From Phycisphaerales bacterium (GTDB taxonomy: Bacteria; Planctomycetota; Phycisphaerae; Phycisphaerales; SM1A02): a stretch of DNA of 51,494 nucleotides. Of this stretch, positions 37,106-51,494 are shown one piece after another (the first letter of the stretch is position 1; each line of letters opens with the position of its first letter). Position numbers and translations under genes: made by a program. The notes under the pieces were generated by a model that saw only the letters and a list, made by a program, of their open reading frames with translations, searched no databases and was not told where the DNA came from. The DNA is taken from positions 1 through 51,494 of the forward strand of contig JAQWTL010000045.1 of the NCBI GenBank assembly GCA_029242715.1. Direction: 5' to 3'.

Positions 37106-39343
37106 ATGCTTTTGATCATGACAGCCCTGGCTGCACTCATGACGCCCCTGCCAGATGGCTACGTCGATGATGCCCGCTGCAGCCGCTGCCATCAGGACGT
37201 TGCCACTCAGTTTGCTGATCACGGAATGGGCCAGGCCTTCTGGGTTCCAGGGCCGGACAATGCCATCGCCGACTTCAGCGAGGAGGGCGGCACCTATCAC
37301 CATCCCGCCTCCAATCTCCATTACCGCATGCGAATGGACGACGAGGGTCGCATGTGGATGAAGCAATACGAACTGGATCCCCAGGGCCAGCCCATCAACG
37401 AAGTTGAATTGGAAGCCCATTACGCCGTGGGCAGTGGCAACCACGCTCGAACCTACCTGTACCAGTCACCCTCCGGAGAACTCTGGGAATTGCCTGTGAC
37501 CTGGTACACCGGCAAAGGGTGGAGGATGTCACCGGGCTATGACACGACACATCATCGACGGTTTGGAAGACAGGTCGGAAGAGGTTGCATCTTCTGCCAT
37601 ACCGCCCTGCCGGGCATGCCTGAAGATGAAGATCTGCTTGGTCGGCCCATCACCTTCCCGGATTCAATCCCGCTTGGAATCGGTTGCCAGAGGTGTCATG
37701 GCCCTGGCAAGGCCCATGTCGATCTGGCCTATTCGGCTGATGCAACTGATGAAGCCATTGCCGCATCGATCCTGAATCCAGATGATCTGCCCCCCAAACT
37801 GGCTGATGATCTGTGCCTCCAATGTCATATGCAACCAAGTAGTCGACTCGGATCAATGCTCCGCCCCTTTGACCGAGGCGTCTTCTCATATCGCCCCGGT
37901 GAACACCTGGAAACATACTTGGCCCATATCGACTTCCCGCCTGATGACCCGGAGGATGCCAAGTTTGAAATCAACCATCATGGTTATCAACTTGAACGCA
38001 GTGCCTGTTTCAAGGATTCCGACCGCACCAGTTGTCTTTCGTGCCATGACGCACACCACAAACTCTCACCTCAGGGAATCCAGGAACGTACACGGGCTAC
38101 GTGCCTTGAATGCCACGAACCAGAAGCCTGTCAGGTTGAGCAGGTCATGCAGATACCACTGGCTGAAGCGCAGGACTGCGCAGTCTGCCACATGCCTACC
38201 CGTGTCCCAGATGATGTCATTCATTCCGCGGTAACCGACCACCGCATCCAGAATCCCGGCCCGCTACCACCGGCACCCGCCATGGATGGTCCGCCACCTT
38301 CGGATGTCACTCCCCGGTTGCTGTATCCCGAGCGTTTCAAGGATGACCCATATGCCCAAGCCTATCCATTGCTGGGCGACATGCTCAGCAACCGAACACG
38401 ACGAGTTGATGATCTGGCAGATCTTCTTGAAGGCGCGGATGCGATCCCTCCAAGGCTGCTGCTTGCCCAGGGGCTCTGGGTAGCGGGCAAGAAGGATGCG
38501 ACTCGTGAAGTTCTGGAGCCACTCGTTCTCGATGCACCATGGGCAACAACTGCACATGTGAATCTTGCTGCCGTTGACATGGCTGATGGCAATATCGATG
38601 AAGCAAGAACACGTCTTGAGGCCGTCGTTTCCGATACCCCGTTCGCTGCAGATGCCTGGTCCAGCCTGGCGGCAATTCACTTCCAGCAAGGTCGCCAAGA
38701 AGATGCCATTGCCACGGCTCGTGAAGTAACCAGGCTCCGACCAAACAACCATCTGGCATATTCGAAGCTGGGAACCTACCTGGCGAGCAACGGCTTGTTT
38801 TCAGAAGCCGCAGACGCCTTTGCAAAGTCAGAGGCATTATCGCCGGGCGACCCTTCCGTCGCCTACAACCTCGGACTTGCACGCTGGAAAGCCGGCGACC
38901 TGCCGGAAGCAACTCGCGATTGGCAGCACGCCTTGATTCGTTCTCCAAATGATCCTCGACTCATCCGTTTCAACATCATGGCGCGAACGCTTCCATGGCC
39001 CGGACTGAAAGCCAGACCGGAAGAAGCCCTTGCGATTGCGGTTCCCTTCTACAAGTCCAATCCCTCTTCCGCAGATGCCACTTTGATGCTCGCGCTGGCC
39101 ATGCTGGCAAATGGCCATGCTGCTGAACTGGGTACGGTGCTGCAACGTGCCAATGAATTGAAGGCCGATCCTGCTGCGATCAGACTCATTCAGGCAATGG
39201 CGCTCGCTGAAACCGGCAATCCATCAGCTGGCCGGGCCATCTTTGATCAGGTCCAGGCCCGAGCCACAAAGCTCGACATTCTTCGCGAAGGCTTGCTTCT
39301 GAGAGCCCGTGAGACCTTTGGTCTGACGACCCCGAGCCGTTGA
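37106..39343 (+). CDS. Seven-heme c-type cytochrome with TPR domain
   Basis: A 745-residue protein. The N-terminal half has seven CxxCH heme sites, at about residues 25, 161, 194, 237, 310, 333 and 358 (CSRCH, CIFCH, CQRCH, CLQCH, CLSCH, CLECH, CAVCH). The C-terminal half is made of TPR repeats (SSLAAIHFQQGRQEDAIATA, VAYNLGLARWKAGDLPEAT). A short hydrophobic N-terminus (LLIMTALAALM) should export it for heme attachment. The layout resembles the cytochrome c554-type multiheme/TPR proteins frequent in planctomycetes; the redox partner is unknown. It is divergent from the chagasin-like gene by 108 bases and followed by a hairpin. Confidence 0.88.
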   Translation: MLLIMTALAALMTPLPDGYVDDARCSRCHQDVATQFADHGMGQAFWVPGPDNAIADFSEEGGTYHHPASNLHYRMRMDDEGRMWMKQYELDPQGQPINEVELEAHYAVGSGNHARTYLYQSPSGELWELPVTWYTGKGWRMSPGYDTTHHRRFGRQVGRGCIFCHTALPGMPEDEDLLGRPITFPDSIPLGIGCQRCHGPGKAHVDLAYSADATDEAIAASILNPDDLPPKLADDLCLQCHMQPSSRLGSMLRPFDRGVFSYRPGEHLETYLAHIDFPPDDPEDAKFEINHHGYQLERSACFKDSDRTSCLSCHDAHHKLSPQGIQERTRATCLECHEPEACQVEQVMQIPLAEAQDCAVCHMPTRVPDDVIHSAVTDHRIQNPGPLPPAPAMDGPPPSDVTPRLLYPERFKDDPYAQAYPLLGDMLSNRTRRVDDLADLLEGADAIPPRLLLAQGLWVAGKKDATREVLEPLVLDAPWATTAHVNLAAVDMADGNIDEARTRLEAVVSDTPFAADAWSSLAAIHFQQGRQEDAIATAREVTRLRPNNHLAYSKLGTYLASNGLFSEAADAFAKSEALSPGDPSVAYNLGLARWKAGDLPEATRDWQHALIRSPNDPRLIRFNIMARTLPWPGLKARPEEALAIAVPFYKSNPSSADATLMLALAMLANGHAAELGTVLQRANELKADPAAIRLIQAMALAETGNPSAGRAIFDQVQARATKLDILREGLLLRARETFGLTTPSR

Positions 39344-39455: not shown

Positions 39456-41939
39456 TTACTTGCGCGAGTGGGAGGACTTGCCGGAACGGGAGGACTTGCC
39501 GGGACGGGAGGACTTGCCGGGGCGGAAGTCGTCTATCAGCATCATCAAATCCTTGATGTCCACGATCTTGTCACGGTTGATATCTGCTTTGGAATTTCTG
39601 GTTCCCCATGCATCAATCAGAATGTACAAGTCTCGCAAGTTCCTATGACTGTCATGACTGGTGATTGCGTAGCCCGAATTCGATTGAATCAGGCAGTGTT
39701 CACTCACGGAATTGCCACCCAGGTCGAGCCACTCGCCGACGATCTGATCAGGCAGGTTGCCACAGATCTTGGAATCCTTAACCGGGGGCTGGTATCCGGG
39801 TGTGGTGTACATGCCGCCACCATCTGCTGACTGGTTCTCCTTGACGTTGCAGTTCGTCACCTCCGGTGCACAATTCCAGTTGTAGATGGCTCCGCCAAGA
39901 GAGATGGCCAGATTGGCTGTGAAGTTGCTGTTCATATAACGCGGTGCGGATTCATGGGCGTGAACGGCGCCACCGCAACCTTTCCCACCATCTTCGCCGG
40001 TCGCCTCGTTGTCATGGAAAGTGCAGCTGCTGTATACAGATGGGCTACCACTGCTATCACAGGCTGCCCCGCCAAGGTCCAGGGCCTTGTTGTTCTTGAA
40101 ATCGCATTCCATGTACACGGGATACGATTGGAGCTGAGCATACGCGGCCCCACCACGCTTGGCCTGGTTTCCGAGGAATACACCACGGACGTAACGTGGA
40201 TTGCTCAGGTTCGAGCTCGCAACGGCACCACCCCGCTCCATTGCCACATTCTGCTCAAACATGCAGTCCTGGATAATCGAACTGACGTGATCATTGCTGA
40301 AGATGGCACCGCCGTAGCGAGCACGATTGGTAGAAAATTCCGTGTCATTGATACTCGGACTACTGTCTTCGATGTACAGAGCCCCACCCTTCTCACTGCT
40401 CTGGTTCTCCAGGAAAAGACAGTCTTCTTCAAACCGAGGATCAGATCCTTCGACCACGTAGCACGCGCCGCCGTTATCCGCTGAGGAATTGCCCCTGAAT
40501 CGACAGTGGGTGAACTTGGCATCGGCGCTTCGGTTGTAGACGGCACCAGCGAAACGGTTGGATCGGTTGCCGGCCAAGACACAGTCCGTGAGATAGGTTC
40601 CAGATAACTGTTCCGAAAAGATCGCGCCACCACCAACCATGAGGGTGTCATAGTTTTCGGTGAATACAGTGTTCGTGATCAGTTCACATTTGTTCAGGGT
40701 GACAGAAGAGGAATTGTCTGCAAACAGACCGCCACCCTGATGTTTGGCCAGATTGTCTTTGACCATGGTTCCATCAAGAGTCACGCGGGTGGCGACTTCA
40801 CCTTCGCCAACCACGTAGATACCACCACCCTGATTGTCGGCAGTATTTCCGGAAACCTCGCCATCCATGAGGTGAAGTTCAGGATTGGAGCCATCAGCCT
40901 TGGATCGTATGTACAGCCCACCACCGGTGAACGCATGGTTGCCGATGAACTTGGAATCGCTACACCTGACCTCACTCTTCAGGCTATAGAGACCACCACC
41001 AAATCCTTGCTGGTGAAGAACACGATTGTTTGAAATCTTGCAGAAGTTCAAACTGGCTGCATGAGTGTTGCAACTCTTGATGGATATCCCACCACCTGCC
41101 ACCTCGGCTGTATTGCCCTCTACGACGCACTCGTCCATGACAAATTTGCTGTTCTCTGAGGAGAACAAGCCGCCACCCCGGACGCCTGCCTGGTTGTCAA
41201 GGAATTCACAAACCTCAAGATTCACTTCGGCGTGCTGATGGATGGCCATGCCGCCACCACTCAGGGAAGTCGTGTTTTCTTTCAGGCTGCAGTCGCTGGT
41301 TTGCAAACGACCTCCGGAGACGAACACGCCGCCTCCACTATAGAGGGATTCATTGGCAGCAATCTTGCCACCATTGATCACTGCGTTGCTCTTATAAAAG
41401 TACAACCCGCCGCCTTCTCGACCGGATGTGTTGTTCGCAATATGGCAATCCTCAAGCACCGGGCTGCCGGTTGAACAAAAGAAACCGCCACCGTTTTTCA
41501 CGGATTGGTTTCCATCAATAACGCATTGGCGAAAGAGAGGACTCGTGTTATTCAGGTAGACACCGCCACCTTCCTGAGCCCGACCACCGGTCAGGATGAG
41601 GTCCACGAACTTGGTGTCCTCATCCTCTCCATTATCGCAGCGAATCACGCCACGAACCTGCTTGCCGTCCAGGGTCACCGTGCCACTACCATCTTTGGCA
41701 ATGATGATGACCGGTTTGCCAAGCGTATCGACGACGTAATCGCCATCGCCGGTATAAACACCGGGCATGACCTGGATTTCCGTTACTTCGCTGGATGAAG
41801 CATCGTTGACGGCGGCTTGGATACTGTCGTACTGAGCCGGTGCATCGTCATCGACAGTGACAATAGCCGCACCGGCTACGCTCGTACAAGAAACAATGAT
41901 CGCGCCCACCAAACAGGTGGCAGTTCTCTGAATATTCAT
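39456..41939 (-). CDS. Secreted parallel beta-helix protein with degenerate dockerin-like end
   Basis: An 827-residue exported protein. A signal peptide (ATCLVGAIIVSCTSVAGA) is followed by an entry region typical of right-handed beta-helices (DSIQAAVNDA, IQVMPGVYTGDG, VTLDGKQVRGVI). Over 20 rungs follow, of the form GGGxxxxxSxPxxxxCxIxxN, with a Cys or aliphatic residue at a repeated rung position. Near the C-terminus is a dockerin-like pair: a first half without its calcium loop (LRDLYILIDAWG) and a second with one (ADINRDKIVDIKDLMMLIDDF). The last residues are a basic tandem-repeat tail. It is probably surface-bound or released; polysaccharide or adhesion function is only a guess. It is related to the protein at 46699. 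Confidence 0.85.
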   Translation of the reverse strand: MNIQRTATCLVGAIIVSCTSVAGAAIVTVDDDAPAQYDSIQAAVNDASSSEVTEIQVMPGVYTGDGDYVVDTLGKPVIIIAKDGSGTVTLDGKQVRGVIRCDNGEDEDTKFVDLILTGGRAQEGGGVYLNNTSPLFRQCVIDGNQSVKNGGGFFCSTGSPVLEDCHIANNTSGREGGGLYFYKSNAVINGGKIAANESLYSGGGVFVSGGRLQTSDCSLKENTTSLSGGGMAIHQHAEVNLEVCEFLDNQAGVRGGGLFSSENSKFVMDECVVEGNTAEVAGGGISIKSCNTHAASLNFCKISNNRVLHQQGFGGGLYSLKSEVRCSDSKFIGNHAFTGGGLYIRSKADGSNPELHLMDGEVSGNTADNQGGGIYVVGEGEVATRVTLDGTMVKDNLAKHQGGGLFADNSSSVTLNKCELITNTVFTENYDTLMVGGGAIFSEQLSGTYLTDCVLAGNRSNRFAGAVYNRSADAKFTHCRFRGNSSADNGGACYVVEGSDPRFEEDCLFLENQSSEKGGALYIEDSSPSINDTEFSTNRARYGGAIFSNDHVSSIIQDCMFEQNVAMERGGAVASSNLSNPRYVRGVFLGNQAKRGGAAYAQLQSYPVYMECDFKNNKALDLGGAACDSSGSPSVYSSCTFHDNEATGEDGGKGCGGAVHAHESAPRYMNSNFTANLAISLGGAIYNWNCAPEVTNCNVKENQSADGGGMYTTPGYQPPVKDSKICGNLPDQIVGEWLDLGGNSVSEHCLIQSNSGYAITSHDSHRNLRDLYILIDAWGTRNSKADINRDKIVDIKDLMMLIDDFRPGKSSRPGKSSRSGKSSHSRK
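39471..39524 (-). repeat. Three tandem 18-bp repeats coding a basic tail
   Basis: Three units of 18 bp (39471-39488, 39489-39506, 39507-39524) differ by only one or two bases each. They encode RPGKSS, RPGKSS and RSGKSS on the minus strand, followed by HSRK and the stop codon. The in-frame period of six residues gives a Lys/Arg/Ser tail after the dockerin-like module. Confidence 0.95.
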
Positions 41940-42503
41940 CTGATGTCATCTCCGCCAGGCGATTCGAACCCCGAATACCTGATCTGTTAATTTGCGGCTC
42001 CCCCAGGAGCCAGATTCCCGTTTCGTTGGCAAGGGATTCAACAGCGATTCCCTCATGCAATAGATCTATGCAGCGACGGATCCCCTGTGTGCTCCTTAAC
42101 GAGGTTTCTGTCACTTATTGAGCCTGAGAAATCTAAAATCGTCGATTTGAAGGCTGCAAAGGCAGTCCTGACTGCCCATTTGTGTTCAAGAGCTTTAGTT
42201 TGGGCTGCAAGCCACATCCCAACAGTCTTCTTTGAACATGGGTAGCAACTTGTCACCAGAAGCAATCTAGAACAGTTCCAGATCAGATGGGGTACTCGGG
42301 TGACAATGATCATGGCGTGACACCAGATCGCTGCCGTTTGGCACCTCATTCATACATCTGTAATGAAGACGCCTTCCAACTGAAGCTTTGGAAGGCGTAT
42401 GTGCCAAGACAGTTAAACACCGGCCATGCAGATACGCAATGGCGATCTTGATAATGAGCCTGTTTGTACAGCAGCGAGCTTCTAAAGCTAGACTCTCCCC
42501 TTC
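41940..42503. other. Long divergent intergenic region with hairpins
   Basis: The gap between the beta-helix gene (minus) and the sensor kinase (plus) holds both promoters. Visible structures are stems at 41996-42001/42006-42011 and 41962-41966/41972-41976, and a strong one at 42369-42398. No convincing coding frame, tRNA or known RNA is present. Confidence 0.5.
42369..42398. repeat. Perfect 11-bp inverted repeat
   Basis: Arms 42369-42379 and 42388-42398 match perfectly around an 8-base spacer. No T run follows on either strand, so it is not a standard terminator. It lies 105 bases before the kinase start and could be an RNA element or the end of an unseen short transcript. Confidence 0.7.
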
Positions 42504-44342
42504 ATGACTTCACGGCTTCCCCTCAATTTCATTGCTCCGGTTCTTATCGCAATACCGGTGCTCATCCTGGGAGTCGGACTTTCCACCCTTTGGTACTGGC
42601 AGTCCAGAGATGCCGTGAGCACTCTGATCGATCAGGAAATCGACCAGATTCATGACCTGGTCACATTGAAAATCAACGAGATCGTGGCTATTCCGCCAAT
42701 GGTCTGCCTGATGAATGAACACCTCATGAAACGGGGTCTTCTGGATCCAAGCGATCTCCCTTCCTGGCGAGAGACCTTCTACCAGGAGATACAGGCATTC
42801 AAATCACTCAGTGCCATTACATGGGGATCTGAGGACGGACGAAGTGCGTGGGTCGCCAGGTACGCCGATGGAAAGACCTACTGGGACATCAAAGATGATC
42901 CTTCGATTCAGATGATGCGGGAATGGATCATTGATGAGGTAGGCAACATCACAAAGTCACCGATCAATACATTCGACTACGACCTGTTCTCTCGCCCGTG
43001 GTACATGACACCTCGAAAGGCTGGCAGACCCGCCTGGAGCCAGCCGTATCTCTGGGCAGGCGCAGAGAACAGTGAAAACGAGACGGTCGGAGTCTCCTAT
43101 GGCCGACCGATCTTCAACGAAGATGGCACACTCATCGGTGTGATGGATACCGACATTTCACTGAATGATCTTTCCGGCTTTCTCCAGTCCATACCTGTTG
43201 GAAAAACCGGCGTTGCCATCCTTGCTTCGAGCGATGGAAAACTGCTTGCGACATCGGACAAATCCAGAGTGGTAGCCGATGACGGCAGCTTGTCGAAAAT
43301 TGCTGCCTCTTCAAATCTGATGATTCAGCAGATCGGCAGTGCCCTTGATCAGCAGCAACTCACGCAGAACTACAATGGAACGGTCATGCTTGAGGATGAA
43401 CCTCACTTGATGAGACTCTCCAAAGCAGGAGAATCCGTCGGCCTTGACTGGCGGCTGGGCACGATCATCCCCGAGAGTGATTTTCTTGCTGAAATCGATG
43501 AACAGTTTCACAGAAGCCTGACACTCAGCCTGGCCGTCTTGATTCTCGTGTTCATCTTCGGAACACTGACCTTCAGATGGCTGGTGAATCCTCTGCACAA
43601 ACTCATCGAGGCCTTGAGAAAAATCGGCGACGGACAACTTGAAACCAAAGTGAACATTGCCACGACCAGCGAATACGTCAAACTCGGCAATGCAATCAAT
43701 CAAATGACCCGCAATTTGCAGAAATCACATGAGAGAGAAGATCTGCTCAAGCGTGAACATGATCATCGTGTCAAGAATATGCTTACGCAGATCGTGGTGC
43801 ACTGCCAGAAAACAGTCAGCCAATGCACGACTGATCAGAAACTGGTCGAAAACCTGACCGCCAGGGTCTCCAATCTTTCCGGGGTCCACGACCTTCTGGC
43901 AGGACGGAATCACCCTGGGATCAGCATTGAAGAACTCATCAAGGATTGCTCCAGCCCTTATTTGACCAGCAAGGATCTGCTGGAGACCGAAGGACCTGGA
44001 ATCTATCTCAACCCCAAAGCAGCCATGTGCCTGTCACACGTCATAAACGAACTGGCAACAAATTCCTGCAAACACGGTGCATTTTCAAGAACTGACGGTC
44101 TCGTAAATGCCACTTGGCGAATACAGGAAGCTGAAGATGGCGACATGCTTGAGATCAACTGGGTTGAAACAAGAGGAAAGCAGCCTGCAGGAGAGATGAC
44201 TCCCAGCTTTGGAACACAAGTGATCCAGGATCTGATTCCATATGAATTGTCAGGCACAGCCGAGATGGCATTCACACCCGAAGGCCTTGACTTCAAGGCT
44301 TCCATATCTGGCAAACACTTCAAGTTGCTGAAGGATGCTTGA
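42504..44342 (+). CDS. HWE-type sensor histidine kinase with dCache and HAMP domains
   Basis: A 612-residue membrane sensor. A membrane helix near residues 9-30 and another near 335-357 flank a periplasmic sensor region of the dCache type (SRPWYMTPRKAGRPAWSQPY, GVSYGRPIFNEDGTLIGVMD). HAMP follows (LHKLIEALRKIGDGQ). The H box is EHDHRVKNML with His421. The ATPase domain has HVINELATNSCKHGAFS and INWVETRG, the N-box and W-x-E that define HWE kinases. In this subfamily the usual F box is weak or absent. No response regulator is next to it, so it is an orphan. It may sense a small extracellular ligand, since dCache domains usually do. Confidence 0.88.
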   Translation: MTSRLPLNFIAPVLIAIPVLILGVGLSTLWYWQSRDAVSTLIDQEIDQIHDLVTLKINEIVAIPPMVCLMNEHLMKRGLLDPSDLPSWRETFYQEIQAFKSLSAITWGSEDGRSAWVARYADGKTYWDIKDDPSIQMMREWIIDEVGNITKSPINTFDYDLFSRPWYMTPRKAGRPAWSQPYLWAGAENSENETVGVSYGRPIFNEDGTLIGVMDTDISLNDLSGFLQSIPVGKTGVAILASSDGKLLATSDKSRVVADDGSLSKIAASSNLMIQQIGSALDQQQLTQNYNGTVMLEDEPHLMRLSKAGESVGLDWRLGTIIPESDFLAEIDEQFHRSLTLSLAVLILVFIFGTLTFRWLVNPLHKLIEALRKIGDGQLETKVNIATTSEYVKLGNAINQMTRNLQKSHEREDLLKREHDHRVKNMLTQIVVHCQKTVSQCTTDQKLVENLTARVSNLSGVHDLLAGRNHPGISIEELIKDCSSPYLTSKDLLETEGPGIYLNPKAAMCLSHVINELATNSCKHGAFSRTDGLVNATWRIQEAEDGDMLEINWVETRGKQPAGEMTPSFGTQVIQDLIPYELSGTAEMAFTPEGLDFKASISGKHFKLLKDA

Positions 44343-44365
44343 TACGAAAAATGGCGACAGCCCAC

Positions 44366-45205
44366 TCAGGCCAGTTCGTAACCGAATGCCTTGAGTTCTT
44401 CCCCCGCCACCGCCTGGAATTTCTGCACTTCCGAACCCGACATCTCTTTTCGCCACCGACCAACTGTTGCATTTGATATCGGCTGAGCAAGTCTTTGATG
44501 CCGCTGGAATGATGCTCTCGCATCAGCCTTGACCTGGGTTGCCTCGAATTGAGCAGGCTCGAGCTCAAGTCCAAGAAAGGCCATGAGCTTTTCCAGGTGC
44601 TCGGCAGGATTGCTCGTGAAGTCTTCGTAACGAACCGTGTGAACGATGGGATTCGTCCGAACCGATAGACCCGCTTCAGTGCAACGCTTCCAGTAACGAG
44701 CATATGCAGCAGATGAATTCAATCTCACGTTCGGGTGCTTCAACGCTGAGCAATAGCCGTCCCGACCATCCCGCACAACATGGATGAAGCGGGCGTTCGG
44801 AAAATGCTTGACCAGAAAACCAAGCCGAAGGACATGTTGCGGGGTCTTCTCGATCAGGATTCGGCCCTCATTACGCGACTCCAGCAGGATCGCGGCACGT
44901 GTCAAGAAATCGATGACGTCGCAGGATTCCGAGAACAACCGCTTGTTGTCTTCTGTTGACAGACCGAAATGATCACGTGAAAAGATGTTCCGTGGGGACA
45001 GCAGGCCCGTTTCCTTCTGAGCACTGAACAATCGACTGTGGGCATGAAGGATGCGTTCCATCAAGGTCGTGCCGCTTCTAGGAGCGCCCAAGACAAAGAT
45101 CATCCTGTGATCACTGACTGTCTTTGGCCGATGCCAACTGATATTTCGAAACACCTGATGCGGTGCCTTGATATATGACCCGAGAATGACCTGGAGTGAT
45201 TTCAT
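44366..45205 (-). CDS. PAPS-dependent sulfotransferase family protein
   Basis: A 279-residue protein with the 5'-phosphosulfate loop of sulfotransferases (FVLGAPRSGTTLMERIL) and the 3'-phosphate region (NARFIHVVRDGRDGYCS). It should move a sulfo group from PAPS to a carbohydrate, lipid or protein Tyr; the acceptor is unknown. No signal peptide is seen. It converges on the kinase gene (23 bases between stops) and is divergent from the hydrolase gene. No PAPS synthesis gene is in the window. Confidence 0.88.
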   Translation of the reverse strand: MKSLQVILGSYIKAPHQVFRNISWHRPKTVSDHRMIFVLGAPRSGTTLMERILHAHSRLFSAQKETGLLSPRNIFSRDHFGLSTEDNKRLFSESCDVIDFLTRAAILLESRNEGRILIEKTPQHVLRLGFLVKHFPNARFIHVVRDGRDGYCSALKHPNVRLNSSAAYARYWKRCTEAGLSVRTNPIVHTVRYEDFTSNPAEHLEKLMAFLGLELEPAQFEATQVKADARASFQRHQRLAQPISNATVGRWRKEMSGSEVQKFQAVAGEELKAFGYELA

Positions 45206-45262
45206 GCCGGGAACACCTGTGCCTCTTTGAACGTCAATTCAAATCAGGGCAACAGTCTATCA

Positions 45263-45276
45263 CAACACATGTGTTG
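45263..45276. promoter_or_regulatory. Perfect 14-bp palindrome, candidate operator
   Basis: CAACACATGTGTTG lies 58 bases before the sulfotransferase start in the shared upstream region with the hydrolase gene. A perfect even palindrome of this size suits a dimeric regulator; no regulator gene is adjacent. Confidence 0.4.
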
Positions 45277-45506
45277 CTCCGCCAACAGCAATGCATCATT
45301 GAGGCCGAATTTGACATCGATGGCCATAGCCTCATCACGATCGTCGATCGGCTGATCATTCCGATTGACTGACCGGATCTGCCTGGACGCTACTGCTACC
45401 ATGGCTTGCGATGATCATGCCCTCGACACAATCCATGTCTGCTGGCAAGAACAGTGCCTTCGCAAGATCGCAAAGCAATGACAGCATTCAAATGGTTGCC
45501 ATTGCC

Positions 45507-46580
45507 ATGAGCAGACAGTTCAAACCGCTCGCTGTGTTGCTGATGAAAAGCTTGTACTCGATGCTGTTGATATTCATGCTCGTTGATGGAACCACCACGC
45601 ATGCAGAGATCATTCCCGACATCGTCTATGAATCACCCGGATGCACGGATCCTGCCCTGGACGTCCATCTACCTGACAGCGGCCTGATCGCTGGCACGCC
45701 TACGATCCTGTACATACATGGTGGCGCCTGGGTCTCAGGCGACAAGGCTGCAGATCATGAACTGCTGCAGGCAATCAGTGAAGGTGGCTATGCGGTTGTC
45801 TCCGGAAACTACACGCTGACAACACCTGAACGGGCTGGGTATCCACAGTCCATTCATGATGTAAAAGCCATGGTTCGATGGATTCGCACCGCTGGATTCC
45901 AATACGGCCTGTCTTCAACCATCGTGGCCACCGGTCCATCAGTCGGCGGGTATTACACGAAGTTCCTGGCAACAACTGGAGGCATTGAACAGTTCGAACC
46001 ACTGCAGGCGCCCGAAGGGGGGTATGACATCCAGGCTGGCATCCCGTTCTGGGGGCTCTCTGATCTTCTTCGTCAGGCAGAAGACATGGGCAGCAGCGGC
46101 CCTCTGGCCTGGTTCATGGGGACTTCATATGGCCACAACACTGCGAGCCTATATATGGAAGCTTCACCTGTGAACTGGGCTGATCAAGATGATGCACCCA
46201 TGCACATGGTTCATGGGCTTGAAGATCCATGGCATCCCTGGCGACAATCATTCTGGATGCACGAGGCGCTCTTGGCCGCAGAGGTCCCATCTTCTCTGGA
46301 GTACTTCCAGGGAGGACATGGTTACGAGGCATATGGAGGGATGGATGCTGCCGCGGACATGCTCATGTCTCAAATCCCGATCCTCCTGGCATCTGGGCGA
46401 ACCGCTGATCTCAATCTCGATGGATCCGTCGATGTGACTGATGTTTTGATGGTGGTGGATCATTGGGGTTCATGCCCCGACCTGCCCGTGGACTGTCCGG
46501 CAGATCTGGATGCTGATGGTGACGTGGGCGTTGATGACCTTCTTGAAGTACTGCAAATGTACGGCGGCCCCCCCGCCTGA
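45507..46580 (+). CDS. Secreted alpha/beta hydrolase with dockerin-like C-terminus
   Basis: A protein of about 357 residues. Several in-frame ATGs exist from 45411 on and none has a good ribosome site; 45507 gives a plausible signal peptide (KSLYSMLLIFMLVDGTTTHA). The hydrolase domain has the oxyanion motif YIHGGAWVSGD, nucleophile elbow GPSVG, an Asp in HGLEDPWHPW and a His in GGHGYEAYGG, as in esterases of the carboxylesterase/feruloyl-esterase type. The C-terminus carries two dockerin-like calcium loops, ADLNLDGSVDVTDVLMVVD and ADLDADGDVGVDDLLEVLQ. It probably cleaves an ester outside the cytoplasm; substrate unknown. Confidence 0.85.
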   Translation: MSRQFKPLAVLLMKSLYSMLLIFMLVDGTTTHAEIIPDIVYESPGCTDPALDVHLPDSGLIAGTPTILYIHGGAWVSGDKAADHELLQAISEGGYAVVSGNYTLTTPERAGYPQSIHDVKAMVRWIRTAGFQYGLSSTIVATGPSVGGYYTKFLATTGGIEQFEPLQAPEGGYDIQAGIPFWGLSDLLRQAEDMGSSGPLAWFMGTSYGHNTASLYMEASPVNWADQDDAPMHMVHGLEDPWHPWRQSFWMHEALLAAEVPSSLEYFQGGHGYEAYGGMDAAADMLMSQIPILLASGRTADLNLDGSVDVTDVLMVVDHWGSCPDLPVDCPADLDADGDVGVDDLLEVLQMYGGPPA

Positions 46581-46698
46581 ACACCCGCCAGCATGATCAC
46601 CAGCCCCGGCACAGCACGCTTTCCGTTCCATTCCACAATCCCCCATTGATCTCCATGACGACCAACACCACAATGGATGACTCTCAGCAGTCAGACCC

Positions 46699-48156
46699 AT
46701 GAAACACCTCACGTTCCTCTTTGCCAGCCTCTTGTCCGTCACCCACGCCTCTGCCGATGTGCTTGAGGTGCCGGCTGACTACCCGACGATCTTGTCAGCG
46801 CTCCTCGCCGCCCAGGATGGTGACACCATCGCCATTGCAGCGGGAACCTACCAGATGTCGTATCTCGAGCCGGGGGGCTTGAGCATTATCATCACAGGTG
46901 AAACCCATCCCGATGGGACCCCAGCGACCATCATCGATGGCATGCAGTCCGGAGCCGTACTGCAATGCAATAACGGCGAGGACAATACGACGATCTTCCG
47001 CAACCTGGTGCTCACCAACGGGTCTTCGTATTACGGCGGTGGCATGACACTCTTCAACGAGAGCAGCCCTCGAGTTGAAAACTGTCATTTCATTAACAAC
47101 ACCGGAACCATCGAGGGAGGCGGCATCCATATCCGTGGCCAGTGTCAGCCGGAATTCATCGACTGCGTCATCCGGGATAATCTTGCGACTGGACATGGCG
47201 GCGGTGTCTTCTGCATGGATGGCGGAACGCCATCCTTCATCGACTGCACGATTTCAACCAACGAAGCCTCCCAACATGGTGGCGGCGTCTACGGCATTCA
47301 ATCAAGTGTCTCGCTCACATCCTGCAACATCACTGGAAACACAGCCACTCGAGGCGGTGGCATGTACAGCATCCAGGACTGCACCCCCACCCTCCAGAAC
47401 TGCACCTTCTCCGACAACGTGGCCAGCATTGACGGCGGTGGGATGTACAACCTTCTGAATTGCAACCCCGTTCTGGAGAACTGCACCTTCACAGCCAACT
47501 CTGTCACAGGCGGACAGTTTGCCTTTGGCGGCGGCATGTACAACCGCGACAACAGCAATCCCCAACTGACCAGTTGTACTTTTCGAAACAACCAGTCAAC
47601 GTCAGCATTTTCATCTGGCGGCGCCATTGCCAACACGGACAGCAGCCCTTCACTGACTGCCTGCCTGCTGGAAGCCAATACCACGAACGGTGCCGGTGGC
47701 GGGATGTCGAATACCGGAGCCGGCTGTGAACCTGTTCTCATTGGATGCCAGATCATGGGCAACAACTCGACCAATGGTGGCGGGCTTTCCTTCTACGGCG
47801 ATGCAACAGCCCAGATCATCGACTGTGAAGTGACAACAAACACGGCAACGAATGGAGGCGGAATACTCAACTTCAGTGGAATCAGCCCTGACATCTCGGG
47901 CACCATTGTCTGTGGCAATACTCCTGATCAGATCGATGGCGGCTGGATCGATCAAGGCAATAATGACATCACCGATACATGCCCGGACTGCATCGGCGAT
48001 GCGACCGGCGACGGCATGGTTGACGTCAATGATGTGCTCTATCTCATCTCGGTCTGGGATACAGCCGATTCCAATGCCGATTTCGATGGCGATGGGCTCG
48101 TCGATACCGATGACGTGCTCATCCTGCTGAGTCACTACGGCGAAACCTGCATCTGA
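46699..48156 (+). CDS. Secreted parallel beta-helix protein with dockerin-like C-terminus
   Basis: A 485-residue exported protein. A signal peptide (LTFLFASLLSVTHASA) and a beta-helix entry (VPADYPTILSALLAAQDGDTI in pieces) are followed by about 14 rungs of the form GGGMxNxxxCxPxLxNCTFxxN, with Cys recurring on successive rungs. The C-terminus has two dockerin-like loops (DATGDGMVDVNDVLYLIS and DFDGDGLVDTDDVLILLS). It shares rung pattern and the block NGEDxxT with the protein at 39456, so the two are probably paralogues. The start is 118 bases after the hydrolase gene; possibly one unit. Function on an external polysaccharide or surface is inferred. Confidence 0.87.
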   Translation: MKHLTFLFASLLSVTHASADVLEVPADYPTILSALLAAQDGDTIAIAAGTYQMSYLEPGGLSIIITGETHPDGTPATIIDGMQSGAVLQCNNGEDNTTIFRNLVLTNGSSYYGGGMTLFNESSPRVENCHFINNTGTIEGGGIHIRGQCQPEFIDCVIRDNLATGHGGGVFCMDGGTPSFIDCTISTNEASQHGGGVYGIQSSVSLTSCNITGNTATRGGGMYSIQDCTPTLQNCTFSDNVASIDGGGMYNLLNCNPVLENCTFTANSVTGGQFAFGGGMYNRDNSNPQLTSCTFRNNQSTSAFSSGGAIANTDSSPSLTACLLEANTTNGAGGGMSNTGAGCEPVLIGCQIMGNNSTNGGGLSFYGDATAQIIDCEVTTNTATNGGGILNFSGISPDISGTIVCGNTPDQIDGGWIDQGNNDITDTCPDCIGDATGDGMVDVNDVLYLISVWDTADSNADFDGDGLVDTDDVLILLSHYGETCI

Positions 48157-48464
48157 AGAGCACGCTCTAAACGCGGAAGTCCGCACGTAAGGAAAACCTC
48201 AAAATTGGGTTTCCTGCGTTCGCCCCACGAACGAAAACTGAAGGCCCGGTGCCATGACCAGTTCAGCAGAACAAGTGGTCAGTTTTTGAATGACCACCGT
48301 CAAGGAGTTCCAATAACGTTGCAGCAGCTCCCGCTGGATCTGCGAATACCGGTTATAAGACGCTGTTTGTATCAAAACGACCCTTTTTAGGTGCCCGAGT
48401 CCCCATCCATGCCATTCTGTATGAACGGCCTTGGAATGCCCGTGTCCCCTGAAGGAGAGAAGAG
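48157..48464 (+). other. Intergenic region with hairpins before the ASST-like gene
   Basis: These 308 bases contain a perfect AGAGC-AC-GCTCT hairpin directly after the beta-helix stop (48157-48168), a 6-bp stem near 48191-48216 that may end that transcript, and a perfect 7-bp stem at 48275-48281/48291-48297. No gene or known RNA is recognised. Confidence 0.4.
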
Positions 48465-50045
48465 ATGTTGTTGAATAGCTTTGGATCATCGGCTTGCCCG
48501 ATTGCCCTGTCCCTCGCGATATCTAGCATGGCCATCGCTGGTGAAACTCCCACCATGGGACTCATTACGGCCTGTGATGACGCCGCCCCCTGCTCAGACA
48601 CCTATAAGTTGTTTGCCCCGTTGAATGGCACACAGACTTTCCTCATCGACAACGATGGAATGATGATTAACTCATGGGTTGATGACTACGTTGCAGGCAA
48701 CGCACTGTACATGCTTGAAAATGGAACGCTCCTGCGTTGTTCGGATAATGGACCGGTCGATGGTGGACCTGCCGCTGGTGGCGACGGTGGCTGTGCCAGC
48801 ATCTTTGATTGGGACAACAACCTGCTGTGGCGGTATTGCCATAACACGACTGAACACCGTCTCCATCATGACATCCAACCCATGCCCAATGGCAATATCC
48901 TGATGATCTCATGGGAAGTGAAATCGAATGCAGAAGCATTAGCTGCTGGCCGAGACCCTGCTTTCATTACCGATGAAGATGGAGAAGTCTGGCCGCTCTG
49001 GATCATCGAACTTGAACCTGATCTCAATACTGCTGACCAGGGAACCATCGTGTGGGAATGGAGAGCGTGGGACCATCTCGTCCAGGATTTCGATGCTACA
49101 AAGCCAAACTACGGCGTCATTGCTGACAATCCCAGCAAGATCGATCTGAACTATGGGCGTGATGGCCGGGCTGACTGGTTACATGTCAATGCCATTGATT
49201 ACAACGAAACACTTGACCAGATCGTCATCTCCTCCCCGTTCGTCAACGAGATCTGGATCATCGATCATGACACGACGACCCAGGAGGCTGCTGGTCCTGC
49301 CGGTGATCTGCTGTATCGCTGGGGTAACCCTCTGGCCTACGATCGTGGAACCGCAGATGATCAGACGCTGTTCTTTAATCATGATTGTCGCTGGATTCCC
49401 GAGGGCTACCCCGGTGCGGGCAATATCACCGTTTTCAATAACGGCAGTACTCGGCCAGGCACCCGGTATTCCCGCGCTGATGAAATCGTGACTCCCCTTC
49501 TGTCAGATGGCACCTACGAGCTCGTTTCCGGAGGCACCTATGGCCCAGAAGATGCCATCATCATCTACGAGGCGGATGTGCAAACCGATTTCTATAGCAG
49601 CGGCCTTTCTGGAGTCGAACGGACCGAATCAGGCACTACCCTGATCTGCATGGGTCGTGGTTCTGGCACTGATCCTGTTGGCGGGCAGTTCTTTGAGGTT
49701 GACGAAAGTGGTGAAGTGATTTGGCGGTATATCAACCCCGTGACGCCGGCGGGTCCTCTGAATCAGGGCGATGTTCCCAGTGGACAGAATGCATTCCGTT
49801 GCAGCCAGTATCCCGTTGACTATGTCGGCTTTGATGGACAGGACCTCACTCCACAGGGACCACTTGAAATCCCAGTCCCTTGTCCGGGTGATACCGATGG
49901 TGATAACGATGCTGATGTCGATGACATTCTGGCAGCCATTGCTCAGTTCGGAAGTGATGGCAGTCAAGGCGCTGACGTAAATGATGACGGCACGGTCAAT
50001 GTCGATGATATTCTTCTGATCATCAGCGCCTTTGGAGGCTGCTGA
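48465..50045 (+). CDS. Arylsulfotransferase-like (ASST) secreted protein with dockerin-like C-terminus
   Basis: A 526-residue exported protein; signal peptide ALSLAISSMAIAGE. The body resembles the ASST beta-propeller family: HHDIQPMPNGNILMISW, WLHVNAIDYNETLDQIVISS, NHDCRWIPEG and GNITVFNNGS match the segments carrying the family's conserved histidines. Classic ASSTs move sulfate between phenolic compounds without PAPS; whether this one is active cannot be shown. The C-terminus has two dockerin-like loops (DTDGDNDADVDDILAAIAQ and DVNDDGTVNVDDILLIIS). A GAAGGAGAG ribosome site precedes the ATG and a terminator follows. Confidence 0.82.
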   Translation: MLLNSFGSSACPIALSLAISSMAIAGETPTMGLITACDDAAPCSDTYKLFAPLNGTQTFLIDNDGMMINSWVDDYVAGNALYMLENGTLLRCSDNGPVDGGPAAGGDGGCASIFDWDNNLLWRYCHNTTEHRLHHDIQPMPNGNILMISWEVKSNAEALAAGRDPAFITDEDGEVWPLWIIELEPDLNTADQGTIVWEWRAWDHLVQDFDATKPNYGVIADNPSKIDLNYGRDGRADWLHVNAIDYNETLDQIVISSPFVNEIWIIDHDTTTQEAAGPAGDLLYRWGNPLAYDRGTADDQTLFFNHDCRWIPEGYPGAGNITVFNNGSTRPGTRYSRADEIVTPLLSDGTYELVSGGTYGPEDAIIIYEADVQTDFYSSGLSGVERTESGTTLICMGRGSGTDPVGGQFFEVDESGEVIWRYINPVTPAGPLNQGDVPSGQNAFRCSQYPVDYVGFDGQDLTPQGPLEIPVPCPGDTDGDNDADVDDILAAIAQFGSDGSQGADVNDDGTVNVDDILLIISAFGGC

Positions 50046-50573: not shown

Positions 50574-51494
50574 ATGGCACGATCACTCATGAATCGGTGT
50601 ATTGCACCAGGTATCTCGATGGCAGCACTGGTGTTCACTATTGGACAAGCAACCGCCTTGGCCGATACCGAGCAAACCGCATTCTCGCTGATCGAAGGTG
50701 ATCGTCTGCCGTTGATGGATGGTTGGGGCACCCACCACCCCGGATGGTTGTATGGCTGGGATCCCAGTATCAACTCACCTGCTGTAGGACCGGCCTCGAT
50801 TGCGCTGACTCGATACGAGGCCTCATACGGTCAAAGTGACTCCTCGGCCCTGTACTGCGCAGACGACGGAGATGTCAACACTCACCAGATGAAACTTCAT
50901 CGAGATGCTGAGGTGTATCTTCCTGGGCAACAACGCAGTCATCGTTATAACCATCCGGTACTCAATGATGCCCCCTTGCCAACACTTCTGCTCTGGCACT
51001 ACAAGAAATGGGACAACAAACAGACCTATCTCATCAACTGGAATTCAACACCCCAGAGCCTTGGCGAGGACTACATGATCGACCCGAATGCCTCCTCTGA
51101 CTGCGTAACCACAGCGACGATTGGCCAGGCCACACTCGGCGGAGGATCCGGGCGTTCGTTGATCCGATATCAGGACAAGACCGTTCTGTTCGCTTCAGAG
51201 GATGATGTCATCGAACTCACTGGATTTGAGATCCATCAGCCACTGCCTGGATGTGAATCGCCATGTGAATGGATCATTTCCGATCTCCCTCGAATCGGGA
51301 TGATCAATACGCTGGATGACGGCTCGATCATGGCTGCGTTCATTGTCACCGCGACGCGTGGCTCGGGGGCCGGGGCTTCCGCGCTGTACCGAGTGACGGT
51401 CGGAATAGACAACCAACAAGAGGTGACCCTCATTGCCCGAGAAGGTCAGGACATCGGCCCCGAGATCGGTCGTGATTCAGTCAACCTCCTCACC
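50574..51494 (+). CDS. Secreted protein of unknown function, 3' partial
   Basis: The frame is open from ATG 50574 to the window end (307 residues visible). AGGAGA precedes the start by six bases. The N-terminus is a signal peptide (GISMAALVFTIGQATALA). The rest is Asp/Gly/Ser-rich and predicted beta (GGGSGRSLIRYQDKTVLFAS, FIVTATRGSGAGASALYRV), like a repeated propeller or choice-of-anchor protein, but I do not recognise a family. By analogy with its neighbours a dockerin-like end beyond the window is possible but not shown. Confidence 0.75.
   Translation, partial: MARSLMNRCIAPGISMAALVFTIGQATALADTEQTAFSLIEGDRLPLMDGWGTHHPGWLYGWDPSINSPAVGPASIALTRYEASYGQSDSSALYCADDGDVNTHQMKLHRDAEVYLPGQQRSHRYNHPVLNDAPLPTLLLWHYKKWDNKQTYLINWNSTPQSLGEDYMIDPNASSDCVTTATIGQATLGGGSGRSLIRYQDKTVLFASEDDVIELTGFEIHQPLPGCESPCEWIISDLPRIGMINTLDDGSIMAAFIVTATRGSGAGASALYRVTVGIDNQQEVTLIAREGQDIGPEIGRDSVNLLT

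Follow-up and report, generated by a model that had tools for sequence, protein, structure and literature searches.

Four exported proteins within about 11 kb of a Phycisphaerales genome were proposed, in a prediction made from the sequence alone, to share dockerin-like C-terminal tails. The DNA concerned is a stretch of 51,494 nucleotides (GenBank assembly GCA_029242715.1, contig JAQWTL010000045.1; hereafter the window), and the tails were followed from there through the source genome and its order. The analysis revealed a predicted dockerin fold, genome-wide use of the module, statistical pairing of its cysteines, no detectable cohesin, and residue preferences on the contact face that differ from genome to genome. 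On this evidence the module probably serves as a general docking tag, and the common receptor that it would bind is not a recognisable cohesin. In the proposed mechanism the tag, mostly C-terminal, would be a calcium-dependent two-helix module whose ends are locked in most tailed exported proteins by a disulfide, which would replace the Tyr/Trp-Pro clasp of clostridial dockerins. The two-fold symmetric helix face (positions 10, 11, 14, 17 and 18 of each half) would bind one common receptor, one per genome, situated on the cell surface or within the outer matrix, and some 150 unrelated enzymes and structural proteins would be gathered there. Disulfide formation, the single receptor and the surface location are what we infer from these results.

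Genome-wide use and fold of the module

The window is contig C46 of the 3.195-Mb source genome (G000; 46 contigs, 96.7% complete). At E ≤ 10 this genome yielded 159 matches to Dockerin_1 and 135 to dockerin_GC, 31 of the latter exceeding the cut-off of the model (three of these only together with their neighbours). Among 14 control genomes, nine matched Dockerin_1 at E ≤ 10 and two did so above its cut-off, while four matched dockerin_GC at E ≤ 10 and none above cut-off. Since controls matched at the loose threshold, the E ≤ 10 counts include some chance matches; a chance origin of the tails as such is ruled out by the dockerin_GC matches in the source genome compared with the controls. Merging the dockerin_GC matches with the Dockerin_1 matches among those listed gave 168 candidate places, and two adjacent loop-helix halves were present in 145 of them, 130 lying no more than 30 residues from a stop codon. 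This two-half test removed the chance matches seen; the 23 places without an adjacent pair include some that are clearly not dockerins (e.g. C20:33821 and C41:183099). The many tails that the original prediction had named as its support are thus present. As for clustering, a 10.6-kb stretch holding at least four places begins at 11 of the 168, against about three expected under uniform spread, so that the four tails within 10.6 kb of the window are above uniform spread yet not unique in the genome.

The remaining 15 two-loop dockerins were internal or had no stop seen inside 30 residues (L029, L039, L102 and L108, from contigs C11, C15, C40 and C41, are among them), and several non-terminal dockerins were followed by cysteine-rich 'GACC...G.C' repeats. 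Several ends of contigs C3, C9, C10 and C45 fall inside or beside dockerin genes; the tails perhaps break the assembly.

Within a sample of 151 genomes of the order, dockerin_GC was present in 107 at E ≤ 0.01, and 82 were dockerin-rich, with at least 20 matches (counted up to a maximum of 37 per genome). Four relatives carried 77 to 162 profile matches each at E ≤ 0.001. Three members of the dockerin-rich family f1 (G033, G023 and G117) had zero or one dockerin_GC match; these are natural losses, useful toward finding the receptor.

The tail of the window ASST-like protein was modelled alone from an alignment (A1) of 54 of the 91 source-genome tails printed. The model had a mean predicted local distance difference test score (pLDDT) of 91.5, with helices at residues 16–24 and 44–52. 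All of the top 16 Foldseek matches in the PDB were dockerin-bearing entries, led by chain B of 2y3n (probability 1.00, template modelling (TM) score 0.81), and VIA-align placed the model on 2y3n with a Z score of 8.9 over 56 residues (root-mean-square deviation 1.8). In a comparison of the sequence profile with the PDB, the best three chains were dockerins, ahead of calmodulins. The tail, as modelled, has a dockerin fold. A generic EF-hand identity was ruled out, the calcium-sensor EF-hand proteins having reached a probability of at most 0.08 in the same search that gave 16 dockerins at the top.

The cargo was surveyed with Pfam in 128 of the 130 terminal-tail proteins (fragments L071 and L022 were left out), in two halves with the 25 commonest families of each listed. 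The commonest of the listed families were beta-helix, FG-GAP, S8 peptidase and ASST; others were M6, M12, M14 and C25 peptidases, CotH, LTD, P-domain and peptidyl-arginine deiminase. GH81C, amylase and lytic polysaccharide monooxygenase each appeared once among the families listed. All that we see in common among these proteins is predicted export and the tail.

Paired cysteines and a genome-specific contact face

Cysteines flank many of the modules. For the 130 terminal tails, C1 was defined as a cysteine no more than four residues before loop 1 and C4 as one no more than four residues after the last helix. The two occurred together in 97 tails, C1 alone in 4, C4 alone in 9 and neither in 20 (odds ratio 54, p = 5e-13). 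The two linker cysteines, C2 and C3, likewise pair up (40/2/4/84 in the same order, odds ratio 420), and the cross combinations were negatively associated (odds ratios 0.2–0.5). Reducing redundancy at 60% left 84 tails with odds ratios of 69 for C1/C4 and 225 for the linker pair. The C1/C4 counts became 105/2/4/19 when the window was one residue wider before loop 1 and at the last helix end, and 107/5/13/20 over all 145 two-loop modules, including the 15 non-terminal ones. In four other genomes of the order both were present in 105 tails, C1 alone in 1, C4 alone in none and neither in 11, with C1 counted within five residues. The simplest reading of this covariation is two disulfides, one of which would link both ends of the module.

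For the contact face, the 130 source-genome tails were compared with 117 tails from three genomes of the same family (G069, G111 and G138) and one of another family (G012). The 117 were kept from 120 loci (L265, L284 and L369 were skipped) at the top of a ranking by the source-genome profile, which biases them toward likeness to the source tails. Positions were numbered from the first calcium ligand of each half and 21 columns were compared. Strong within-genome preferences, differing between genomes and alike in both halves, were found at positions 10, 11, 14, 17 and 18: the source genome has V-[ND] at 10–11, L14 and [LI]17; G069 has G-[AS], [STA]14, L17 and G18; G111 has G-A, G14, L17 and A18; G138 has A-A, A14, L17 and [NS]18; and G012 has I-F, L14, Q17 and N18. 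Information on the genome of origin was highest at positions 10, 14, 11 and 18, followed by 13 and 17, while the calcium-ligand positions 1, 3, 5 and 12 carried 0–0.12 bit and ligand 9 carried 0.37 bit. The five contact positions averaged 0.91 bit and the remaining ones 0.27 (p = 1e-4 in an exact Mann-Whitney test), and the same comparison within positions 10–21 minus 12 gave p = 0.004. Positions 10, 11, 17 and 18 alone, which with an offset of one would correspond to Ser11-Thr12 and Lys18-Arg19 of clostridial dockerins, gave p = 0.002. Assignment by nearest neighbours recovered the genome for 140 of 151 tails from the five positions and for 80 of 151 from the other 16, a post hoc comparison.

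These positions coincide with those known from cohesin-binding dockerins. Ser11-Thr12 and Lys18-Arg19 are the clostridial signature pairs (PMC4728124), and recognition positions 10 and 17 with calcium ligands 1, 3, 5, 9 and 12 are given in PMC5590126. In the Ruminococcus flavefaciens Doc1a-cohesin complex helix 1 makes contact chiefly through Ile39, Ser40, Val43, Met46, Gln47 and Lys54, and alanine at Ile39 or Val43 lowers affinity about 100-fold (PMC5429695). Helix 1 begins at Ile39 in Doc1a and, in the present tails, at position 10, which is residue 16 of the model; this places the contacts at positions 10, 11, 14, 17 and 18; one Doc1a contact falls outside the 21 columns. The contact face thus differs between genomes as if each matched its own receptor, to judge from residue preferences.

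The same residues bear on the possibility that the module has no partner and is a calcium- and disulfide-locked cap that protects or folds exported proteins and was spread by domain shuffling. In favour of a cap, a disulfide clasp and calcium sites would add stability, the tails within a genome have some residues outside the contact face in common, and no receptor was found. However, a cap would need no genome-wide common face, and the genome-specific residues are concentrated on the cohesin-contacting helix face and repeated in both halves, with next to nothing at ligands 1, 3, 5 and 12. Because these residues lie mainly on the contact face, we regard a partnerless cap as distinctly unlikely.

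Partner search and alternative tags

A cohesin was sought with two profiles. Pfam Cohesin gave no match in the source genome at E ≤ 10 and, at E ≤ 0.001, matched 10 of the 151 genomes of the order sample and 7 of the 82 dockerin-rich ones, leaving 75 of these without. An in-clade cohesin profile (alignment A4) was built from 11 of 16 loci, omitting L118, L130 and L132 (the strongest match among them) and the partial L121 and L126, and was run on 20 hand-picked genomes of the 151, five of them seed donors. It matched in the five seed genomes only; there was no match in the source genome at E ≤ 1 and none in 14 further genomes, including G001, G007 and G012, which are among those with the most dockerin candidates, G012 being a single contig. 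The original prediction had seen no cohesin gene in the window, and this holds genome-wide by both profiles. It had also named many tails with one partner family as support; the tails are there, no partner family was found, and the genome-specific contact face points to one indirectly.

Where in-clade cohesins do occur they are mostly one per open reading frame (ORF), with two in a 1952-residue frame of G048. Of the 13 loci whose frame was read correctly, 10 also encode a dockerin-like half, and none of the loci read showed a scaffoldin carrying more than two cohesins. Genus g2 (G048, G060 and G081) has up to 12 cohesin matches per genome, often in ORFs with their own dockerin-like half, and its member G002 has none.

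An ordinary cohesin-dockerin system of the cellulosome or 'planctosome' type, with cohesins missed through incomplete assembly or divergence, would fit the cohesin-like domains in 10 genomes of the order and the abundance in G048. It would also fit the cohesin and dockerin proteins of Nemodlikiaceae (PMC6461901), the scaffoldin of Limihaloglobus sulfuriphilus (PMC11557425) and the fact that the positions which look selected are dockerin contact positions. Against it stand the lack of any match in a 96.7% complete source genome and in the single contig of G012, and the form of the in-clade cohesins, mostly single and with a dockerin half of their own. We regard such a system as unlikely.

Relatives of the window ASST protein allowed the tail to be compared on one cargo. 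Sixty-five related loci were found in GTDB genomes, the nearest being L164 (76%) and L165 (79%) from Phycisphaerales metagenome-assembled genomes (MAGs). Sixty proteins with a closed 3' end, that of the window included, were compared; L165, L166, L224 and L226 (open 3' ends) and the tail-only L227 and L228 were left out. Forty matched a type A sorting domain of the type IX secretion system (T9SS), three dockerin_GC and one Dockerin_1. By eye, the T9SS tails are mostly those of Bacteroidota and the dockerins those of Phycisphaerales; the protein of a Chloroflexi MAG (L181) has a cysteine-free dockerin, and some relatives in Gammaproteobacteria and Anaerolineae have no tail. The window ASST protein had no match to the T9SS sorting domain, and a search for SprA returned none in the source genome and none in the controls alike. 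That homologues carry different tails is an argument already applied to GlyGly-CTERM (PMC3237569). The earlier suggestion of a general surface-attachment or export tag fits these data: 145 modules on diverse proteins, no cohesin, and a T9SS domain at the same end of the ASST protein in most Bacteroidota relatives.

ASST proteins were found in 19 of the 151 genomes of the order at E ≤ 1e-20. A dockerin follows the domain in every relative with at least 50% identity (one is truncated where its locus stops). In genus g12 the tails of these relatives match the g12 (G111) type and not the source type; some neighbouring ASST paralogues gave one tail twice in this assignment. In a distant group (34–40% identity), 10 of the 12 loci (L237–L246) have a dockerin with cysteines on the N-terminal side and none at the C-terminus, L236 has a C-terminal one and L247 no convincing dockerin. 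The module is thus movable, which suits a docking part over a C-terminal sorting signal.

This placement also bears on a possible sorting role of the terminal Gly-Cys, which a sortase-like enzyme would cleave or modify with lipid, in the manner of other C-terminal tags; the NCBIfam name 'GC-type dockerin domain-anchored protein' might suggest such a role. PEP-CTERM and dockerin tails are, moreover, mostly abundant in different families of the order: at a threshold of 20 matches each, 76 genomes had dockerins only, 36 PEP-CTERM only, 6 both and 33 neither (Spearman −0.27). This pattern, however, follows families, its counts are lower bounds, genus g61 has both tags, and exosortase is universal. 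C4 is the last residue in only 31 of 106 tails, has one residue beyond it in 44 and at least two in 31, which speaks against a terminal sorting motif; its presence goes with that of C1 instead. Inspection of the printed tails by eye showed neither a membrane helix nor a basic cluster, and the cysteine-flanked dockerin is N-terminal-side in 10 of 12 distant ASST loci. A Gly-Cys sorting motif is therefore extremely improbable. In f1 and f2, the dockerin-rich families, PEP-CTERM tags are both scarce and weak despite the universal exosortase. Replacement of the PEP-CTERM machinery by dockerins was also considered; abundances do vary between families, but the stronger claim that this machinery was lost fails, since all 151 genomes have exosortase.

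Several points weigh against a docking tag with a genome-specific receptor. No receptor was found, a cohesin that has diverged strongly would be missed by the profiles, and the exosortase found throughout the order sample is another surface-sorting enzyme in the clade. A crude signal-peptide score was positive in 111 of 122 tail proteins but also in 14 of 24 other window ORFs, and is too unspecific to carry weight for export. The best Foldseek E value was 0.011, none reaching 0.001, for a query of 57 residues, and the cysteine pairing is statistical, the C1/C4 pair being present in two of the four window tails. The contact-face comparison covers five genomes from five genera, and its five positions were picked after the residues had been viewed, the contact list being consulted later. 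The other 16 positions also hold genome signal (the 80 of 151 tails above), to which the spread of tails within a genome could contribute. Against G012 alone the top positions were 11, 13, 16, 8, 17 and 18, the core positions 13, 16 and 8 being equally high. Lastly, in G144 and G066 the tails of the ASST proteins agree with the source type, so that some genera share types.

We still consider a general docking tag for a non-cohesin receptor probable. A wider proposal, which we put forward only tentatively, is that families f1 and f2 have a display system built on dockerins without cohesins, in which a receptor of another fold, with genus-varying specificity, would recruit exported proteins through a disulfide-locked dockerin with a co-evolving contact face and so do the job of T9SS or PEP-CTERM tags. 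A literature search that left subscription journals mostly uncovered returned no paper on 'GC-type dockerin' or on dockerins 'without cohesin', and in the text available no report of paired cysteines or a disulfide clasp, of a lack of cohesin in a sample of the order or of a genome-specific contact face. Dockerins lacking cohesins have reportedly been noted in passing, without explanation, in research on cellulosomes (as by Peer et al. 2009). Already known are the family named in NCBIfam and the proposal of a cohesin-based planctosome. As unrelated proteins of one genome share their own contact face, the partner question is directly testable, with a built-in specificity control. A receptor, if found, would define a new means of organising the outer proteins of planctomycetes, and would give engineering a second set of docking pairs, orthogonal to the existing one.

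The window genes and known systems

In the window, positions 39456–50045 hold, in order, a beta-helix protein (−), a cache-HAMP-HWE kinase (+), a Sulfotransfer_3 protein (−), a BD-FAE esterase (+), a second beta-helix protein (+) and the ASST-like protein (+). The gene set and coordinates first reported were correct, and the domain calls hold by Pfam and, for ASST, also by fold. The statement that four proteins end in DxNxDGxVDxxDLL modules stands for 45411–46580, 46699–48156 and 48465–50045, each with two loop-helix halves, and fails for 39456–41939, whose tail is degenerate. Pfam Dockerin_1 scored all four under its cut-off (E 0.058–0.6), and only 46699–48156 passes dockerin_GC (33.7 bits, cut-off 29; the other three 15.4–22.2).

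The exported beta-helix protein at 39456–41939 (−; Chlam_PMP, E 9.6e-31; NosD) has a tail at 39516–39665 (−; dockerin_GC 22.2 bits) in which the first loop has decayed, with its calcium ligands lost, while the second half is intact; it lacks the cysteine pair and runs into a basic PGKSSR-type end, a repeat not seen in the other tails printed. The exported BD-FAE-type carbohydrate esterase at 45411–46580 (+; PF20434, E 1.3e-33; PDB matches including esterase structures 6nkf, 6mly and 6tkx) carries a two-loop tail at 46404–46577 (+) with the linker cysteine pair and without N-C clasp cysteines. The exported beta-helix protein at 46699–48156 (+; PF13229, E 1e-20) has a GC-type tail with the N-C cysteine pair at 47980–48150 (+; 33.7 bits in the protein scan, 38.1 in the genome search). 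The exported ASST-like propeller at 48465–50045 (+; PF05935, E 8.6e-18) had no match by sequence in the PDB; its model did match by fold, the best 11 entries being the sulfotransferase Cpz4 (9kf6) or ASST (4p04, 3ets) at a TM score of about 0.5, and its GC-type tail at 49881–50042 (+) has cysteines at both ends. A fifth exported gene at 50574–51494 (+), whose N-terminus looks export-like by eye and which gave no convincing match to a family in Pfam or NCBIfam scans, is cut as originally described, because contig C46 itself stops there; any tail would lie beyond the visible part. Adjoining the cluster, 37106–39343 encodes a multihaem cytochrome (paired CXXCH) fused to TPR repeats.

The original prediction also raised a dedicated local system, in which the esterase, ASST, beta-helix proteins, sulfotransferase and sensor kinase would modify one sulfated or esterified outer polymer. 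The genes are adjacent; a Sulfotransfer_3 gene with 74% identity lies beside ASST in L165 (L165:300-1136), the only one of the two nearest loci to have it, and in L164 the ASST-dockerin gene has a SulP sulfate permease upstream of it (L164:1-1599). Beta-helix and ASST domains share one frame in a Phycisphaerae MAG (L166:1308-3191, an apparent fusion), and beta-helix sequence lies beside ASST in L248. The sulfur-related neighbours are weak hints. The dockerin tails occur genome-wide, the sulfotransferase and kinase have no dockerin match, and beta-helix is among the commonest cargo types anyway; the esterase and beta-helix were not found near ASST in L164 or L165 (loci of 5.5 and 3.3 kb). As the four tail genes are only a few members of a set spread across the genome, the dedicated system is unsupported, and we hold it to be highly improbable.

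Compared with known systems, the tails share with clostridial and ruminococcal dockerins (types I and II, PF00404; 2y3n, 2b59) the fold, the duplicated calcium loop-helix, two-fold symmetry and the principle of an N-C clasp; the Bacteroides cellulosolvens dockerin 2y3n is the PDB entry nearest to the window tail. In those dockerins the ends are held by Tyr5-Pro66 stacking (clostridial; PMC4728124) or a Trp-Pro contact (ScaA of R. flavefaciens; PMC5864761), in contrast to the putative disulfide clasp here. Hardly any tail shows the clostridial Ser-Thr and Lys-Arg signature: among 130 tails, Ser-Thr or Ser-Ser stands at positions 10–11 of one first half and of no second half, and Lys-Arg at 17–18 of no first half. 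The cargo differs as well: cellulosomal dockerins sit chiefly on plant-polysaccharide enzymes, and here it is mostly not glycoside hydrolases among the families listed. A cellulosome further has a cohesin-bearing scaffoldin, and neither the Pfam nor the in-clade profile found a cohesin in the source genome.

Within the Phycisphaerae, a cohesin-based 'planctosome' has been proposed for the family Nemodlikiaceae (PMC6461901). The class and the non-cellulosomal dockerins are alike, and LTD, P-domain and reprolysin proteins are tailed here too. That model needs cohesins, for which both searches here were negative, together with dockerin adaptor and LTD anchor proteins; LTD was found in 2 of 65 tail proteins of one scanned half. 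Elsewhere, a two-cohesin scaffoldin is described in L. sulfuriphilus, a member of the Planctomycetes-Verrucomicrobia-Chlamydiae (PVC) bacteria (PMC11557425), and non-cellulosomal dockerins are discussed as possible adhesins in Omnitrophota (PMC10066038). The NCBIfam family NF041540 (dockerin_GC, 'GC-type dockerin domain-anchored protein') has the same loops and Cys-flanked ends; it is a name without a stated mechanism, in which cysteine pairing and a genome-specific face were not found stated.

Although the tail is not the T9SS sorting domain, it resembles the T9SS C-terminal domain, PEP-CTERM and GlyGly-CTERM (PMC3237569) in that one terminal domain occurs on many unrelated exported proteins and in that one cargo family bears different tags in different lineages. 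LPXTG- or PEP-CTERM-like tags consist of a motif, a membrane helix and a basic cluster; the tails described here, by eye, end within or just after a folded, soluble calcium module, which sometimes sits on the N-terminal side of its cargo.

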